Below, piece by piece: positions 2,471-26,868 of a stretch of 64,000 nucleotides of DNA. The DNA is from Gloeocapsopsis crepidinum LEGE 06123 (GTDB lineage: Bacteria; Cyanobacteriota; Cyanobacteriia; Cyanobacteriales; Chroococcidiopsidaceae). The stretch's first letter is position 1; each line of letters starts with the position of its first letter. The DNA is taken from positions 1 through 64,000 of the forward strand of contig NZ_JADEWN010000021.1 in assembly GCF_015207655.1 (NCBI RefSeq). The letters run 5' to 3'. Position numbers and translations under genes: made by a program. The notes beneath the pieces were generated by a model. The model did no database searches. It saw nothing but the letters and a program-made list of their open reading frames with translations, and was not told the origin of the DNA.

Positions 2471-4441
2471 ATGACGACAAGTGACATTTTGATTATTGGT
2501 GGTGGCGTTGTTGGTTTAGCGATCGCTGTTGAACTGAAACTTCGAGGGGCTTCTGTGACAGTACTCAGTCGCGACTTTCAAGCAGCAAGTCATGCGGCGG
2601 CGGGGATGCTAGCACCGCAAGCAGAGGCAATTCCTCCTGGGGCAATGCGCGATCTATGCTTAAGATCGCGATCGCTATATCCTGAATGGATCGATAAACT
2701 TGAACAACTTTCTGGTGTCACTACAGGATACTGGGCTTGTGGAATCTTAGCCCCTATGTATCAAGAACCCATTCATACAGTAGAAGACGATGAGGTTGCT
2801 TACTGGCTAGAACGCGATGCAATTAATTTGTATCAATCAGGATTAAGTAGTGATGTGATTGGTGGTTGGTGGTATCCCGAAGATGGACAAGTTGATAATC
2901 GGGCATTGATGCGATCGCTGTGGACAGCTGCAGAGTCCCTGAGAGTCGATTTACAAGACAACGTTACTGTACAAGCAATTCAACAGCAGCAACGACGCGT
3001 TATTGGCTTACAAACTTCGGTGGGTGTCTATCGTGCTGAACATTATGTGTTAGCTGCAGGTGCTTGGTCAAATGAATTATTACCCGTTGCGGTATGTCCG
3101 AAAAAAGGGCAAATGTTATCGCTGCGAGTACCTGAAGGTCATTCTGGATTACCGCTACAGCGAGTTTTGTATGGACCAGATACGTATATTGTGCCGCGCC
3201 GCGATGGCAGAATTATTGTTGGGGCAACGAGTGAAGATGTGGGATTTACACCATACAATACCCCGTTAGGAATTCAAACTCTACTACAGAACGCAACGCG
3301 ATTACTGCCGCAATTACAACATTATCCAATTGATGAATTTTGGTGGGGATTTCGTCCTGCAACACCTGATGAATTACCAATTCTCGGTTCTAGCCCTTGC
3401 CATAACTTGACACTTGCAACTGGGCATTATCGCAATGGTATTTTATTAGCACCAGTAACGGCGAGTTTAATTGCTGAGTACATTTGGCAAAAATCTGATT
3501 CGCTGTTAGAACATTTTCATTTCTCGCGGTTCTACCAAGATAAGAAAGTTACTCCAACGTTGCCAAAATCATCACCAACTCAATATTTATCACCGTCGGC
3601 AAAAATGCAAACTATCGCAAAACCAATAGAGAATTCATTAGTAGACATTGATACTCCTTTAACAATTGCAGGGCAGACGTTTCATTCGCGCTTGATGACA
3701 GGTACAGGAAAGTATCGCAGCATTGAGCAAATGCAGCAAAGTGTTGTCGCCAGTGGTTGCGAAATTGTTACAGTTGCAGTACGTCGCGTCCAAACTAATG
3801 CACCAGGACACGAAGGTTTAGCAGAAGCCTTGGATTGGAATAAAATCTGGATGCTACCTAATACTGCGGGTTGTCAAACAGCAGAAGAAGCAATTCGCGT
3901 TGCGCGTTTGGGGCGTGAGATGGCGAAATTATTAGGGCAAGAAGATAATAACTTTGTCAAACTAGAAGTCATTCCTGACGCCAAGTATTTGTTACCCGAT
4001 CCCATTGGGACATTAGAAGCTGCAGAAAAGTTAGTGAAAGAAGGTTTTGCTGTACTTCCCTATATTAATGCCGATCCGATGCTGGCTAAACGTTTAGAAG
4101 AAGCTGGTTGTGCTACTGTTATGCCTTTAGCTTCGCCTATTGGTTCAGGACAAGGATTGAAAACTACCGCAAATATTCAAATTATCATTGAAAATGCCAA
4201 TGTTCCAGTCGTGGTAGATGCTGGAATTGGAACTCCTAGTGAAGCTGCGCAAGCAATGGAGTTAGGTGCAGATGCTTTGTTAATTAATACGGCGATCGCC
4301 CAAGCTAAAAACCCACCCGCAATGGCACGCGCAATGAGTCTGGCTGCGATCGCTGGACGTCTTGCCTATCTTGCTGGGAGAATCCCTATTAAGGACTATG
4401 CTAGCCCCAGTTCACCACTTTCAGGCACAATTAATAGTTAG
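2471..4441 (+). CDS. thiO/thiG: Bifunctional glycine oxidase ThiO / thiazole synthase ThiG
   Basis: This 656-residue fusion joins two steps of thiamine thiazole synthesis. Residues 1-360 are a FAD-dependent amine oxidase (dinucleotide motif GGGVVGLA at 10-17; [13 protein letters not shown] near 294-306) that should oxidise glycine to dehydroglycine. Residues 394-656 are a ThiG barrel, with MTGTGKY near 409-415, AVRRVQ near 436-441 and FVKLEVIPD near 495-503. The lysine of the last motif matches the family's Schiff-base lysine. A low-complexity linker (about 360-393) separates the halves. ThiO-ThiG fusions are known in cyanobacteria, so the fusion is not new. No thiS lies next door. I saw no TPP riboswitch in the 210-base leader, which instead holds a repeat element. 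Confidence 0.93.
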
Positions 4442-19946: not shown

Positions 19947-22900
19947 TTAGCTGAGAACAGCAATCACACCACCCATCGCCGCCGCAATGGCCGAAACAAC
20001 TGCCGTAGCAAAGAGCCACCATGCCGCACTTCCTGCTGCCTTGCGGGTTTCTTCAGCTTGCCGCTGAGCTTGAACTTTAACTTGTTCAAGACGACGTTGT
20101 GCTTCTTGTTGAACTCGCTCTGCACGTTGCAGGACGTTGTTACGCGCACCTTCAATTTGGTCGATAATTCGGTTAGCATCTGCTTCCGAAATGTCCTCGC
20201 GCGAACTCATAATAGCGACGAGTGTTTCGCGGTTAAATGAGCCTAAGCGATCGCGAATTGCATCAAAGCCTGCTTGGGGATCGTCAAACAACTTACGCAC
20301 ATCTTTTTTGATGCCATCGTAGTTCAGTTCAGGGCGATCCAGCGAATTTAAGTAATTACGGATTCTACCGAAAACACCATCAATGACGTCTTGGATGCGG
20401 CGTTGAATTGCCCGTATTTGCTCGACAAATTGATCGCGTACCGCTAAAACCTGATCGACAGTGCGAGCTGCTTCTTCCTCTGACATATCACCCCGTGCTT
20501 GCAGAAGAGCAATGATCGTTGAACGGTCGAAGTGTGATAAGCGATCGCCTAAACTTTCTGCCCCAGCGCGTGGATCGTTGAGCAGTAAGTACAGTTCGCG
20601 CTTAATTGCTTCAGGATTCAACTCATCCTTACCAGTACTGCGCAAGTAGTCTTCCAAGTTTTGTTGGAAGTTTTGCACTCTGGCTTGAGTACGTGCTGCC
20701 AAGCGGCGTGGCGAACGAATAATATCGCGAATCGACACTTGGATTTGATTGATAATTTGGTTAACTTGCTCTTCGCTTAAGTCTTGGCGTTGACTCAAGA
20801 GTTTTACCAAAGTATCGCGATCGACTTGTGCAAGTCGTCGTCGCAGTGCTACAGCACCTGCTTGCGGATTTTCAAAAAGCTTTGCGAAGTCGCGTTGAAT
20901 GCCTTCTGGATTGAGTTCATCTTTACCTGTGTTGCGCAGGTATTCAGCGATCGTCTGTGTCACTGAATCATACTGCTCTTTAGCTTTGCCAGCAACGATT
21001 TGCGGCATATGTGTGATGTCGTACCACGTTCCTTCTACTTGCTGCAAAACTTGGTTGATCTGTTCTTCAGATAAGTCATCACGCTGATTTAATAGCTGGA
21101 ATAAAGTATCGCGATCAAAACGCGACAATCGCGCCTGTACTGCGGCTGCCCCAGCTTGAGGATCTTCCAATAATTTTTGCAGATCGCGCTTGATTCCTTC
21201 AGGATTAAGTTCGTCTTTACCAGTATTACGTAAGTAAGACTCTAAATTAATCCACAGTGTTTCTGCTTGTTGTTTAGCTTGATCCGCAACATTTTGCGAC
21301 TCAAACAAAACTTGCTGGCGGACATCTTCTACCGCAGCGAGGATAGTTTCTGCTTCCTCTGGGGTGATGTCGTTGCGTTGTAGCAGAATTGGTCTTAACG
21401 AACCGCTTTCTAACCGCGCCAGCCGCAAAGTTAGCACTTCATGATCCGTTTCTTCATCCTCTAGTAATGGCTTGAAATCTTGCGCCATTTTTTCAGGAGT
21501 TAAATCTGCTTTACTTGTTACCAAGAGATAACTCTCGACACGACGCTGTAGATCTTGAACTGCTTCTCTTTCTTCTTCTGCTCGAACGATAGTCAATACT
21601 TCTTGACGAATGCTTTCTAGCTGATCGGCAATTTCCTGAATTTTTGCCTGCGTAAAGACACCCCGTTGTTGCAGAAGATCGGCAAAGTCCTGACGTGAAA
21701 TTTGCTCAATCTGACGCCTCACTGTACCTGGATCGGCAGCCGGATCGTAAAGAACATCACGAAATTCTTGGTTAACTTTTTCACGGTTAATCTGCCAAGA
21801 ATAAGTATTAAGCAAATAGTTTTCTACATCTGCCCGAATCGTGTTGTAGGGTACGGCTGCACTTTTGATACCTACTTGATCGGCAACCTTACCAGCTTGA
21901 TCTGTTGCTTTATCTCTTGCTTGCGAAAGCGAACTCAAGATCTTTTCAACATCGAAGTCTGAAAGATCGGCTCTACCCATTACAAGTCCCATCAAGGTTG
22001 TCATTCCTTGCTGAATTGTACTTTGGATAGGTCCTACGCCTCCTGCGGTCGATCCCTGAGTTGTTCCTTTACCGGAACGGACTTCCGCAATTAGCTGATC
22101 TACCTTGGCACTCAATTCATCAGTTTTAGCTTGCCCAGGCTGTGCTGACTTGAGATAATCTACCAACTCACCTAAGCGATCCTTCTGAGGAGCTTGTTGT
22201 GAAACAACTTGTCGCCACACACTTTCAAGTTGATCGACAATGCGGTTAATATCTCGTCTTGAAAGATCAGTACGAGTGCTGACTAATTCTACAAACTTCT
22301 GTCGATCAATATTACGCAGGTCTTCTGTACCTGCAATCTCTCGCAGTTGCGGATCGTTCAACAGGTTTTCAAATTCCTTGCGGATATTAGAGATGTCTAA
22401 TTCGGGAGGACGTAGTGTGTCTAGATAGTCTTCAATATTTTCCCGAATTGTTAGCGGATCAATCGCACTGCCAATTTCACGTCTTACAGCCGCTGCTGCT
22501 GCTTCAGCAGTTGCCACAACTTGATTATTGACAGCCTTTGCGCCTAATGCAGCAGTTGCAGTACCAACAATAGCTTGGAATCCAGATGTTGCTGTATTTA
22601 CAACTGAGCCAATCAGGGAACCTACAGTAGTGGAACTAAACCAAAACAGTAGTAAAAAATATGCACCCCAAATGACAAGTCCGAGAATTGCTCCTAGTCC
22701 CACATCTAGAGTTAACAAGCTTAATTCCACCGCCAAAAGACAAGCAATGAATAAAGCAACACTCACTGTGACTAGTGTCCAAATTCCTACCGCAGTACCT
22801 ATTTTGCGAATTGTCCCTCCGACACTATCAGATCCGCTGCTACTGGAGTCTGAGTCTGAGTCGGAGGAATGACCTAGATAAGAAATGCCAGCTGCAACCG

Positions 22901-23090
22901 AGAGGTTTGTCAACACTAACTGAATGGCAAAGGCAAGAATAACACCAGAAATTAAAGCAACAAAAAATCTCGGTCCTGAGAAAACGAGTGCTGCTTCGGC
23001 TGGTGTTACTGCCCCTGGAGTTACTGGCACCTGTGCTATCCAAGATAGCGCGTGGTCTGGTTCCAGTAGTATTTCCGTATTCTGAAACAT
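19947..23090 (-). CDS. Large membrane protein with about eight 98-residue helical repeats
   Basis: I do not recognise a named family for this 1047-residue protein. Residues 41-66, 97-125 and 128-165 are hydrophobic and make an N-terminal membrane domain. A Ser/Asp-rich loop (74-90) lies between the first two. Repeats follow with a YL motif at about 222, 312 (degenerate), 425, 521, 619, 717, 815 and 913, so the period is close to 98 for the last five. Each runs YLRNTGKDELNPEGIKRD, then LLEDPQAG, RLSRFDRDTLFQLLNQR and DDLSEEQINQVLQQVE. A charged helix (985-1018) leads to a final membrane span (1023-1045). Repeats four to seven are the most alike. The gene has its own terminator and a long upstream region. 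A scaffold or membrane-tethering role is conceivable but only a guess. Confidence 0.85.
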   Translation of the reverse strand: MFQNTEILLEPDHALSWIAQVPVTPGAVTPAEAALVFSGPRFFVALISGVILAFAIQLVLTNLSVAAGISYLGHSSDSDSDSSSSGSDSVGGTIRKIGTAVGIWTLVTVSVALFIACLLAVELSLLTLDVGLGAILGLVIWGAYFLLLFWFSSTTVGSLIGSVVNTATSGFQAIVGTATAALGAKAVNNQVVATAEAAAAAVRREIGSAIDPLTIRENIEDYLDTLRPPELDISNIRKEFENLLNDPQLREIAGTEDLRNIDRQKFVELVSTRTDLSRRDINRIVDQLESVWRQVVSQQAPQKDRLGELVDYLKSAQPGQAKTDELSAKVDQLIAEVRSGKGTTQGSTAGGVGPIQSTIQQGMTTLMGLVMGRADLSDFDVEKILSSLSQARDKATDQAGKVADQVGIKSAAVPYNTIRADVENYLLNTYSWQINREKVNQEFRDVLYDPAADPGTVRRQIEQISRQDFADLLQQRGVFTQAKIQEIADQLESIRQEVLTIVRAEEEREAVQDLQRRVESYLLVTSKADLTPEKMAQDFKPLLEDEETDHEVLTLRLARLESGSLRPILLQRNDITPEEAETILAAVEDVRQQVLFESQNVADQAKQQAETLWINLESYLRNTGKDELNPEGIKRDLQKLLEDPQAGAAAVQARLSRFDRDTLFQLLNQRDDLSEEQINQVLQQVEGTWYDITHMPQIVAGKAKEQYDSVTQTIAEYLRNTGKDELNPEGIQRDFAKLFENPQAGAVALRRRLAQVDRDTLVKLLSQRQDLSEEQVNQIINQIQVSIRDIIRSPRRLAARTQARVQNFQQNLEDYLRSTGKDELNPEAIKRELYLLLNDPRAGAESLGDRLSHFDRSTIIALLQARGDMSEEEAARTVDQVLAVRDQFVEQIRAIQRRIQDVIDGVFGRIRNYLNSLDRPELNYDGIKKDVRKLFDDPQAGFDAIRDRLGSFNRETLVAIMSSREDISEADANRIIDQIEGARNNVLQRAERVQQEAQRRLEQVKVQAQRQAEETRKAAGSAAWWLFATAVVSAIAAAMGGVIAVLS

Positions 23091-23498
23091 GGTATCCTTT
23101 GGTCAAAGCTTAAATCAGCGTAGATTATAAGATTACATGAGAAAAAACTCTGTATCTTTAGCAATACTCAACTTTCTAGCTCAGAGTCTTTGAATCGGAT
23201 AGGCTAAGGCATCCCTCTGAGGTCTGAAAACCTGTATCCTCAACAAAATTAGGTAAGTACAAGAATCAATAAAGTCTAGTAGCTTTCCTTACTCTAACTT
23301 TATTAACCTCCGATAAGATGTAACACTTTATTGAAATCTTTAAAGACTTACACCCTCCAACGGTGGAATTACCACCTTTAAAAATACCCTAAGAATCGCT
23401 CTTTAGACTTGGCTTCATATTATATCTATAGACAGAAAGTGTCACTTAAATAGATCGATACAGTTAAAAGTGTCTAGAGAATTTTTTAGGAGCAAAAT
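23091..23498. other. 408-base gap between two divergent genes
   Basis: This AT-rich region separates the repeat-protein gene (minus) from the HLIP gene (plus) and must hold both promoters. An AGGAG ribosome site lies 7 bases before the HLIP ATG. I searched for a clear HLR1-type direct repeat of TTACA and found none. No ORF or RNA gene is supported. Confidence 0.5.
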
Positions 23499-23696
23499 AT
23501 GGACAGCAACACAAATCTACCTCCAGTCGCTAAAGAGTATAACGGTAAAGATCGTAATGCTTTTCTTTTTGGATGGAATCCCCAAGCTGAACTCTGGAAC
23601 GGACGCCTAGCAATGATTGGTTTCCTTGCTTATTTACTTTGGGATTTAGCAGGCTACAGCGTTCTACGAGATGTACTTCATTTAATCAGCTACTAA
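23499..23696 (+). CDS. High-light-inducible (HLIP/SCP) chlorophyll-binding-like protein
   Basis: This 65-residue protein has the single Lhc-like membrane helix of the HLIP family. The signature ELWNGRLAMIGFLAYL is at about 31-46, with the conserved Glu, Asn and Arg that bind and order chlorophyll in the family. The soluble N-terminus (1-28) is typical. HLIPs protect photosystem II assembly intermediates and chlorophyll synthase under light stress. It is monocistronic, has AGGAG before its ATG, and is followed by a long hairpin. The specific paralogue cannot be named from sequence alone. Confidence 0.93.
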   Translation: MDSNTNLPPVAKEYNGKDRNAFLFGWNPQAELWNGRLAMIGFLAYLLWDLAGYSVLRDVLHLISY

Positions 23697-23852: not shown

Positions 23853-24142
23853 TTAATTGACTGCTTGAGGTAACAAAAACCAAAACCGCGAACCTCCATT
23901 AACCAGAGGTGTATAGCCAATACTTCCGCCCCAGCGTTCTACCGTAATACGGCAAAAATGCAAAAATATAGACCAAGACCACTTCTGCCAGCTTTTTGTT
24001 TGCCTTGAGTAAATTTTTGAAATAAACTTGTAGCAACCTCAGGAGCTACACCATAACCCTCATCATCAACTGCGAACAAAATAGATTCTTTGACAAAGCT
24101 TTATCTTTTGGTGTTTGCTGAGTTCGAGTTAAATGAAGTTTC
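23853..24142 (-). pseudogene. Histidine kinase remnant (C-terminal ATPase domain), frameshifted
   Basis: On the minus strand the segment reads VDDEGYGVAPEVATSLFQKF and then TQGKQKAGRSGLGLYF, the G1 and G2 boxes of an HATPase domain. After a frameshift it continues RITVERWGGSIGYTPLVNGG and ends SRFWFLLPQAVN-stop. The shift is caused by an 8-bp tandem duplication, GCAAAAAT twice at 23952-23967; removing one copy restores the frame. A second frame change lies upstream, near KDKALSK. The kinase N-terminus is absent. It abuts the coiled-coil pseudogene, which is a usual neighbour pattern in cyanobacteria. Confidence 0.8.
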
Positions 24143-24907
24143 TTAATCATTCCCAATCATGTCAAAGTCATTGTTAAGCTACATTGCAGGGTAAGTAAAT
24201 TTGCTAAAGTTGTGCGATCTATTTTTTTAGTGCGTACGTCTTGAATTCCTTTTTCAACTAAATTAATATTTTGTTCGGATTTTTGCCGCATTTCATCATC
24301 GAAACACTTAGATTGTTCGAGAATTTGCTGACGCATATCTCATTATTTCTGTGCTGTTTGCTCATCGAGATGAGATATTCTCTTCTCTAAATTCTTAGTT
24401 GTATCTTTAATATTTTGAGCAATTCCTTATAAGGCTTCGTCGCACTCACTGTGTTCGGTTTTAATTTGTTCAGTTAATGTAGTAAGTTCTTGCTTTATTT
24501 GAGAATCTATAGAGTCTAAACGTTTTTTGTCTCTACTTCTAGTGTTTTAGTAATATCTTTGATACTTTAATTCAAGTTTTTTATCGCTTTATCTCTTGCA
24601 GCTTGCTAAAATTTAATTTCTTTGGTAAGTGAGTCTATTTCTTGTTTAATGTAATCTTCCAAAGAATCTAGCCGTTTTTTCGTATCGTCATGCAAGTTGG
24701 TACATTCTTTAATGAAACGTTCTTCTAGCCGATTAAACTTCTTATCAAATTTCCGAATTTGATTGCTAAATAGAAGATCTCTGGCTTTTTCTAAATTAGC
24801 ACTACCAGCCCTATCACCAGCCGTCAGTTGTGGTTTGTTGCTTGCATTGTGGCTTTGTTTGGTTCAACTGCAACGTAGGTAACGTGTTCTTCTTCTGGTG
24901 TACTCAT
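24143..24907 (-). pseudogene. Degraded gene for a coiled-coil cyanobacterial protein
   Basis: From the ATG at 24907 (MSTPEEEHVTYVAVEP) the frame stops after about 27 codons. In other frames it continues as SANLEKARDLLFSNQIRKFD, RLEERFIKECTNLHDDTKKR and LDSLEDYIKQEIDSLTKEIK. Later pieces are DSQIKQELTTLTEQIKTEH, a MRQQILEQ block, and an end LNNDFDMIGND before TAA at 24143. Several stops (including one in place of an expected Arg) and frameshifts break it. The intact family is a long charged coiled-coil protein found beside sensor kinases. I count at least five disabling changes by eye. Confidence 0.75.
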
Positions 24908-25377
24908 TAATTTGATCCTCGATTACTGAGTTGCATCTCTAACTCATTCTTTTATTCCACACCAGTGGATTTACGCAAGCAAATATAGCACTTGACTTGT
25001 TTAGCAAATGCCAAAGCAAATTAAGCGATAGATATCTAGAAAAAAGAGTGAGCTTGGTTTCAAACACATCATAAAACACTAAGCTTATTAGTCACACTCA
25101 AATTATTTTATCTATAGATGTAGGATATATACGAGTATGAGTGAAACAAGTATTGGCAGTCACGCTACCTATAGCTTTTATCAGCTTCCTTTATTATTAG
25201 GTAATTATGAATGCTTTAATGGAGACTTACGTAAGTGCTACTAAGTAGAAGCTATTAGATAGAGTATTTAGAAACGTTCAACAGTTAAGCTTGAAAACAT
25301 TTATTCTGACTCAGTTTTCTGCTTTAAAAACTCATCTAAGTTTGCAAATACGTAAGTCGTCTTGCTTGATTTGTTGT
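24908..25377. other. 470-base gap with no supported gene
   Basis: The stretch is very AT-rich. A 35-codon frame starting with ATG at 25137 (MSETSIGSHATYSFY) has no ribosome site and no recognisable content, so I do not call it. It lies upstream of the decayed pair and downstream of the carotenoid oxygenase. It is probably leftover sequence plus the lost gene's promoter. Confidence 0.5.
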
Positions 25378-26868
25378 TTAGTAAGCTGGTATAAACAGTT
25401 CAGGCGTAAAGCTACCATGCAACCCATAAGGAATATGATGCTTGAGATGGAGACGGGCGATCGCACCTTGCTCAAAATTACGCGCATCTAAAATCACCAC
25501 ATCCGAACGATGATGTGTCGCATCGTAAACCAGTGCTAATATCCAACCATCATCTTCACCTTCACCATGAGGGCGTTCAACAAAAATTGGTTCGCTGACA
25601 AAGCCACGTGGTGCAGCACTCCACAATTGTCGATGTCCTGTTTCAAGATCAGCTTTGAGAATTGCTTGAAGTGGAGCATTTCCAGTATTCGCGTGCGCTG
25701 CACCCATATATAAGTAACGACAAGGACGCCCGACTTTTTCAGGATGCATGGTGGGAAATTCACAACAGCGTGGTTCAATTAATGCCCGTAATACTGTCTG
25801 CTGCTGTAAGTTGACATGAAAGCGCCACATCTGTCCTGGTTGGAGTGCATCAAAATCAACTTGTTTAAAATCACTTCCGGCTTCGACTTCCGGAAAAGAT
25901 TCATAGCAAATTGAGTCTATAAAAATTTCCTCACCTTGCTCAAACGCATTCGCATGATGAAATACAAAACCAGATTGCGTTTCGAGAATTTGCATTTGTC
26001 GCGATTTATGTCGCGGAATCACAACAATGCGTGTTGGTTGATTTGGCTGAAACTTAATACACTCTCCTGCACCACGCAAACCAAAAACAAAAGGAATTGG
26101 ATTAAATGCGATTGGATTTTGGAAGAAAATACAGTAATTTTCGGTGATGGCAAAATCGTGAATAAAAGCGAACCCAGGAACATTGTGCGCGTGTTGGCGA
26201 ATAACGTTACCAGCCGGATCTAGTTCAAAAATTGTAATGGTTGAAGATAAACCTGGCTTGATCGAGAAGTTGACCATGCATGGTGCGCCATCATCTTGGT
26301 TACACCGAGGATCAATGCGAGGATGGGCGGCAAAAGCTTCACCATCAGCTAAAACACCGTTGAGTGAGTCTTTCCCTAATGTTTCTAATGTTGCTGGATC
26401 GAGGCGGTGGGGATCAGCAGCTTCCCACAGTGCGAGGAGTTTACCACCCCAGTAAACAACGTTAGTATTAGCAATGTTTTTCAGTCGGAGATCAAAAGCG
26501 TTCGCTAGCCAACCACCAGGCTTTTGCGTGCCAAAAACACCACGGTAGAGGATTTTACCTGCTTGTTGTTCTTCTACAAACGCAGCAGTACGCACAAAAC
26601 GATTGCGAAAGTGAGCGCGACCATTGTGAAAAGCGATCGCACTGATCATGCCATCACCATCAAAAGGATGATGTATAGCATTACCATTAACATCTAATAA
26701 CCCAGGACCATTACGAAACAACGTTCCTTGCAGTTCTGGTGGAATTTGCCCCTCAATATCATCAATCCAGTAATCGTATTCAGTTTTAAGAGATTCGTAT
26801 CCTCCTTGCCAATCTTGGCGCTGATAGGAGTGGGTAGGAACTGTAGATGCGCGTTCGTAAAGTTGCAT
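25378..26868 (-). CDS. Carotenoid oxygenase (apocarotenoid-15,15'-oxygenase-like)
   Basis: This 496-residue enzyme of the RPE65/CCD family should cleave apocarotenoids to retinal-type products. The four iron-binding histidines fall at about H182 (AAHPRID), H237 (FIHDFA), H304 (FVFHHANAF) and H484 (PYGLHGSF). Those positions closely match the Synechocystis apocarotenoid oxygenase (183, 238, 304, 484). The N-terminal GTLFRNGPGLLD and HPFDGDGMI blocks are typical. It acts on membrane-embedded substrate from the cytosol. The gene lies 50 bases after the transporter gene on the same strand and may share its transcript. Confidence 0.92.
   Translation of the reverse strand: MQLYERASTVPTHSYQRQDWQGGYESLKTEYDYWIDDIEGQIPPELQGTLFRNGPGLLDVNGNAIHHPFDGDGMISAIAFHNGRAHFRNRFVRTAAFVEEQQAGKILYRGVFGTQKPGGWLANAFDLRLKNIANTNVVYWGGKLLALWEAADPHRLDPATLETLGKDSLNGVLADGEAFAAHPRIDPRCNQDDGAPCMVNFSIKPGLSSTITIFELDPAGNVIRQHAHNVPGFAFIHDFAITENYCIFFQNPIAFNPIPFVFGLRGAGECIKFQPNQPTRIVVIPRHKSRQMQILETQSGFVFHHANAFEQGEEIFIDSICYESFPEVEAGSDFKQVDFDALQPGQMWRFHVNLQQQTVLRALIEPRCCEFPTMHPEKVGRPCRYLYMGAAHANTGNAPLQAILKADLETGHRQLWSAAPRGFVSEPIFVERPHGEGEDDGWILALVYDATHHRSDVVILDARNFEQGAIARLHLKHHIPYGLHGSFTPELFIPAY

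Follow-up and report, generated by a model that had tools for sequence, protein, structure and literature searches.

The window, that is, the whole stretch of 64,000 nucleotides of Gloeocapsopsis crepidinum LEGE 06123 DNA that was analysed, contains on its minus strand a long gene whose product carries membrane helices at both ends and a chain of helical repeats between them. An intergenic region separates this gene from a divergently transcribed gene for a high-light-inducible protein (HLIP; Table 1). HLIPs are cyanobacterial relatives of plant light-harvesting proteins; they bind chlorophyll and carotenoid and protect photosystem assembly.

Table 1. Features of the long gene and its divergent neighbour (positions in the window; residues of the encoded protein).
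Feature	Position	Strand	Residues	Remarks
Whole gene	19947..23090	(-)	1047 aa	Conserved without stops in relatives
TM4	19953..20009	(-)	1028-1046	Hydropathy; preceded by a K/R-rich helix predicted to be continuous with R8
R8	20100..20363	(-)	910-997	Most conserved repeat: 84% A-A and 74% A-B identity
R7	20394..20657	(-)	812-899	HMM
R6	20688..20951	(-)	714-801	HMM
R5	20982..21245	(-)	616-703	HMM
R4	21276..21539	(-)	518-605	HMM
R3	21564..21827	(-)	422-509	HMM
R2	21873..22166	(-)	309-406	HMM; degenerate, 10-aa insertion
R1	22173..22436	(-)	219-306	HMM; sole repeat retained by the short paralog
TM3	22647..22703	(-)	130-148	Hydropathy
TM2	22728..22784	(-)	103-121	Hydropathy
TM1	22911..22967	(-)	42-60	Hydropathy
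Shared divergent intergenic region	23091..23498			408 bp; HLR1/RpaB box in many relatives, none recognisable here
HLIP gene	23499..23696	(+)	65 aa	Divergent neighbour; Pfam PF00504, 24.9 bits, above cut-off; conserved linkage

The long protein and its repeat array

The 1047-residue open reading frame at 19947-23090, reported in a preliminary description of this DNA, proved to be real and is conserved, free of stops, in relatives. Hydropathy analysis gave three transmembrane (TM) candidates at the N-terminus and one at the C-terminus, in agreement with the anchors described at both ends. When the protein was compared with itself, the signal peaked at an offset of 98 residues, and an HMM iterated over homologs, from which the repeat boundaries were taken, refined the "about eight" repeats of the description to exactly eight helical repeats of ~98 residues between TM3 and TM4. 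The YL motif had been correctly placed at residues 521, 619, 717, 815 and 913, and its tyrosines are invariant in 29 homologs. The degenerate copy suspected at about 305-395 turned out to be R2. An HMM built from R5-R8 only scored R1 at 60.9 bits, R3 at 34.8, R4 at 46.0 and R2 at 10.5, and none of 500 shuffles scored above 7.9; R2 is thus degenerate yet above chance.

A full-length AF2 model had low overall confidence (pLDDT 53, pTM 0.30), with a pLDDT of about 75-90 in R3-R4. The predicted helix pattern recurs every 98 residues (630-642/644-656/660-668, 728-740/742-754/758-766, 826-838/840-852/856-864 and 924-936/938-950/954-962), and long helices cross the repeat boundaries, the last of them (969-1046) entering TM4 at low confidence. 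Repeats that differ in structure would have spoken against the preliminary description; the model, at its low overall pLDDT, assigns the same helices to each repeat. Spectrin-type and other helical repeat rods also have long helices that are continuous across repeat boundaries, but neither a sequence match nor a significant fold match to them was found. The best fold match of the repeats (Z 7.6, R4 region) lay within the background for helical models, and neither the full model nor a model of the short paralog gave a match above background in fold searches. An AF2 alignment without proteins from plasmid records was used.

Neither the entire protein nor its separate pieces showed an informative domain when scanned against Pfam, NCBIfam and PHROG, and a sequence search of the PDB gave no match. 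The earlier statement that no function has been described for this protein therefore stands, the one Pfam/NCBIfam exception being a weak half-match of the whole protein to HU (PF00216, 28 bits, profile positions 3-37 of 90; also phrog_379). Helices 1-2 of HU/IHF resemble the two-helix stretch of each repeat, whereas the beta sheet and the DNA-binding arms are absent from the all-helical model of this membrane-anchored tandem array. A complete HU fold was rejected on the partial profile coverage and the absence of strands from the model.

Paralogs, repeat number and family membership

The genome that carries the window encodes two paralogs of ~1050 residues and one of 370, and the repeat is confined there to these proteins. 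A match to the long gene was found in 37 of 60 related genomes and, with the N-terminal 200 residues as query, in 32 of 194 genomes across the phylum. Among 77 genomes of the class, every match listed lay in a long ORF of ~920-1100 residues, except for two in a 259-residue frame (contig G248:C121). All 119 full-length relatives that were counted, 100 of the window type (A) and 19 of type B, with lengths of 1015-1083 residues, contain eight repeats; a single full-length exception was confirmed, in L034. This 1227-residue member (L034:3047-6730) carries ten repeats, apparently through an extra R3-R4-like pair. The identity matrix of A against B repeats was diagonal, each repeat being orthologous to the same-numbered one, which indicates that the array arose before A and B separated and that its repeats have not been homogenised. 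As judged from these sequences, the eight-repeat array is ancient and maintained. In a tree of the N-terminal block, whose root and long branches are uncertain, the short paralogs were nested within the long proteins, together with B (99/94), so that the one-repeat form of cyanobacteria is probably a secondary reduction.

Shorter relatives share the membrane helices. Cyanobacterial proteins of 206-217 residues, among them a paralog from the same genome (L177), consist of the TM1-3 block, homologous to that of the long protein (hhalign probability 96%), and a final TM helix, but have no repeats; their TM2-TM3 loop and C-terminus are positively charged. One-repeat relatives of 361-372 residues in cyanobacteria and of ~300-320 residues in Proteobacteria have the same TM1-3 and TM4. 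With the window protein as tblastn query, residues 43-305 matched a Pseudomonas plasmid "YrzE family protein" (L188; E 2e-8), which holds one full copy of the repeat (E 1e-12 with the HMM from R5-R8 only). The repeat-free relative as query reached rhizobial "PhnA-like" proteins, a match that is weak alone, and a tblastn search of plasmids with the short paralog gave no match, unlike those with the full protein and the repeat-free relative, which reached Proteobacteria. Profile-profile comparison by hhalign against the proteobacterial set gave 99.6% probability (E 6e-23) for residues 1-310, a homologous three-TM block, and 95.7% (E 3.5e-9) for residues 900-1047, the C-terminal TM after its helical linker.

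Taken together, the tblastn and profile-profile matches place the long protein, at the level of sequence, as a repeat-expanded member of an uncharacterised and widespread membrane family, PhnA-like/YrzE-type, both designations being annotation names only. The proteobacterial members likewise show the order TM1-3, helical insert and TM4, but they are short, have zero or one repeat and are without a link to photosynthesis genes. A short helical insert with at most one repeat describes the proteobacterial members seen, although it is not a curated definition; with its eight repeats, the long protein is accordingly a variant and not a standard member. Since relatives with zero or one repeat keep TM1-3 and TM4, the array is best described as an insertion between TM3 and TM4.

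HLIP, carotenoid and stress genes near family members

One to five divergent HLIP genes lie upstream at 88 of the 100 A loci; a few of these loci represent the same genome fetched twice and many come from close relatives within the Nostocales, so that the linkage counts are not independent. In 8 of the 12 A loci without a divergent HLIP gene, the sequence stops no more than 950 bp upstream. No other neighbour of A loci was found at more than about 35 of 100. No HLIP gene was detected near several deeper A-type loci (L023-L028) or near B loci, with the exception of one B locus.

The linked HLIP of the window (23499-23696) belongs to a distinct subfamily, whose members score 98-144 bits, whereas other HLIPs do not exceed ~47. 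Within the 60 related genomes, this subfamily (E < 1e-27) was restricted to genomes with the long repeat protein: it was present in 25 of the 37 with a long-gene match versus 0 of the 23 without (Fisher p 5e-8), and in 7 of 17 versus 0 of 16 when genomes were collapsed by family (p 0.007). The two genes co-occur also where they are not adjacent. A literature search with the HLIP locus tags of Anabaena PCC 7120 found no papers.

The shared intergenic regions were scanned with an HLR1 consensus. Of 88 regions, 36 contained a full 16/16 match, compared with 0 of 880 shuffles; in the window the best match, 12/16, was at chance level. The HLR1/RpaB box has a role at scp/HLIP promoters (PMC6331805). 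In the regions that carry it, this predicted site lies on the HLIP strand, ~160 nt upstream of the HLIP gene, and may thus regulate HLIP alone.

Two further observations concern the DNA beyond the HLIP gene. An ORF at 25378-26868 resembles, by eye, a carotenoid oxygenase, and a similar gene is present in the fetched flanks of L003-L005, L020, L118 and L131. The stretch at ~23890-24960 is without long ORFs; on the minus strand, its frames resemble interrupted pieces of coiled-coil and kinase-like sequence and could possibly be a decayed gene.

The short paralog lies immediately downstream of a helical carotenoid protein (HCP) gene in 4 of 8 genomes. In the genome carrying the window (contig C34), the HCP gene (L022:2252-2782) is followed after 176 nt by the one-repeat paralog (2959-4071) on the same strand, and an HCP gene also precedes the one-repeat paralog in L039, L168 and L169; in L169 its identity was established with Pfam PF09150 (2.8e-59). 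By its arrangement, this pair is a possible operon that would tie the family to carotenoid photoprotection.

Stress genes of the DUF2382 (YsnF/AvaK) and YflT types occur nearby in 8 of 20 loci of paralog B, and DUF2382 genes were found also beside three alphaproteobacterial relatives. In L185, L186 and L189 (Rhizobial/Azospirillaceae), the PhnA-like genes adjoin YsnF/AvaK pairs, and in two cases an L,D-transpeptidase comes next; such stress-type clusters are recurrent. The genome carrying the window also has an HLIP-like helix (G000:C70:14915-15025) about 4 kb away from paralog B, in a 395-residue open frame that may encode a ferrochelatase bearing a CAB tail; G010:C3 shows a comparable match close to paralog B.

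In N. punctiforme, alkane stress induces HCPs and AvaK-type proteins together with an HLIP (PMC7660261). This fits a single stress regulon, of which the repeat-protein gene is a candidate member. Npun_F4818, described as having "four TM, putative transporter" character, is induced under the same stress (PMC7660261). It was considered as a candidate member of the family, but the Nostoc loci that were fetched had no GsiB-like gene next to them.

Candidate functions of the long protein

That family members are linked to genes for HLIPs, carotenoid proteins and stress proteins, a point absent from the preliminary description, is the main functional clue, and it is from these genomic neighbours that a role in photoprotection is suggested. 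We consider the long protein a strong candidate for a photoprotection scaffold that has so far gone unrecognised. Our best explanation, offered tentatively, is that of a stress-linked scaffold in a single membrane, presumably the thylakoid, serving HLIP and carotenoid photoprotection. TM1-3 and TM4 would form one four-helix unit of the PhnA-like/YrzE type, and the eight-module array inserted between TM3 and TM4 would project from one face of the membrane. There it may contact and dock or organise HLIPs, together with the photosystem-assembly or repair complexes that they protect, and the one-repeat paralog would serve the helical carotenoid protein.

In the main rival reading, the protein has a general role in stress: its long helical array would protect membranes by coating or stabilising them when cells dry out or meet oxidative stress, and it would have no specific partner among HLIPs or carotenoid proteins. 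Members of the family are found near YsnF/AvaK (DUF2382), YflT and Usp stress genes as well as near light genes, and photosynthesis-specific partners are impossible for the proteobacterial relatives. Against this, the HLIP linkage is much more persistent than that of other neighbours, a carotenoid protein gene precedes the short paralog, and a fixed number of eight repeats would be expected of a defined structure more than of an unspecific coat. On balance we regard such a general role as rather unlikely.

The preliminary description had proposed that the protein bridges or spaces membranes, with TM1-3 in one membrane, TM4 in another and the array between them. The position of membrane helices at either end of a helical stretch of about 800 residues would be compatible with this, and a fixed repeat number would set a fixed spacing. 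However, in relatives with zero or one repeat the same TM4 lies only tens of residues or one repeat away from the same TM1-3, so that these proteins cannot span two membranes and the ends are most simply read as one four-helix unit in one membrane. An AF2 model of the short paralog (TM helices 35-69, 82-116, 121-157 and 315-369; pLDDT of about 66-83 across the membrane parts) aligned over residues 28-370 to single helical bundles, alignments that are weak evidence and not significant as homology; together with the homology of the family, this medium-confidence model is consistent with packing of TM4 on TM1-3. Loop charges bear on the orientation of the unit. In the proteobacterial forms, K+R values of 2.25 in the TM2-TM3 loop, 3.0 at the C-terminus and none in loop 1 point, by the positive-inside rule, to an N-in/C-in topology with the insert outside, whereas the long cyanobacterial forms show the opposite bias (2.9 in loop 1, 0.8 in loop 2 and 8.3 in the linker before TM4). 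AncM, an anchor between thylakoid and plasma membrane, was also considered for comparison; the papers listed have no bearing on the long repeat protein. Bridging is not supported, and we consider it improbable.

A channel, transporter or transport regulator that is formed by the four TM helices and regulated through the repeats appears more doubtful still: the membrane block is polytopic and its Gly/Ala/Ser-rich stretch after TM3 is strongly conserved, but there are only four TM helices and no transporter family was matched in Pfam, NCBIfam or PDB sequences. We give hardly any credence to a nucleoid or DNA tether acting through the HU-like helices of each repeat, since the weak whole-protein matches that suggest it reach helices 1-2 of HU only, no single repeat passes the HU profile alone, the model has no strands, and acidic residues outnumber basic ones in the protein as a whole (152 D+E versus 116 K+R).

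The photoprotection scaffold can be cast in a stricter form, which we hold to be unlikely as it stands. The long protein would then be a dedicated HLIP membrane scaffold, found so far only in cyanobacteria, whose fixed eight-module platform gathers HLIP-containing photosystem assembly or repair complexes under light stress, and which arose when repeats multiplied within a membrane protein of ancient bacterial stress responses. To our knowledge, what organises HLIPs in the membrane is not settled. A large, conserved and undescribed membrane protein whose gene has an intergenic region in common with genes of one specific HLIP subfamily is a direct and testable candidate for such an organiser, and the PhnA-like/YrzE membrane family, known by annotation only, gains a context in stress and photoprotection.
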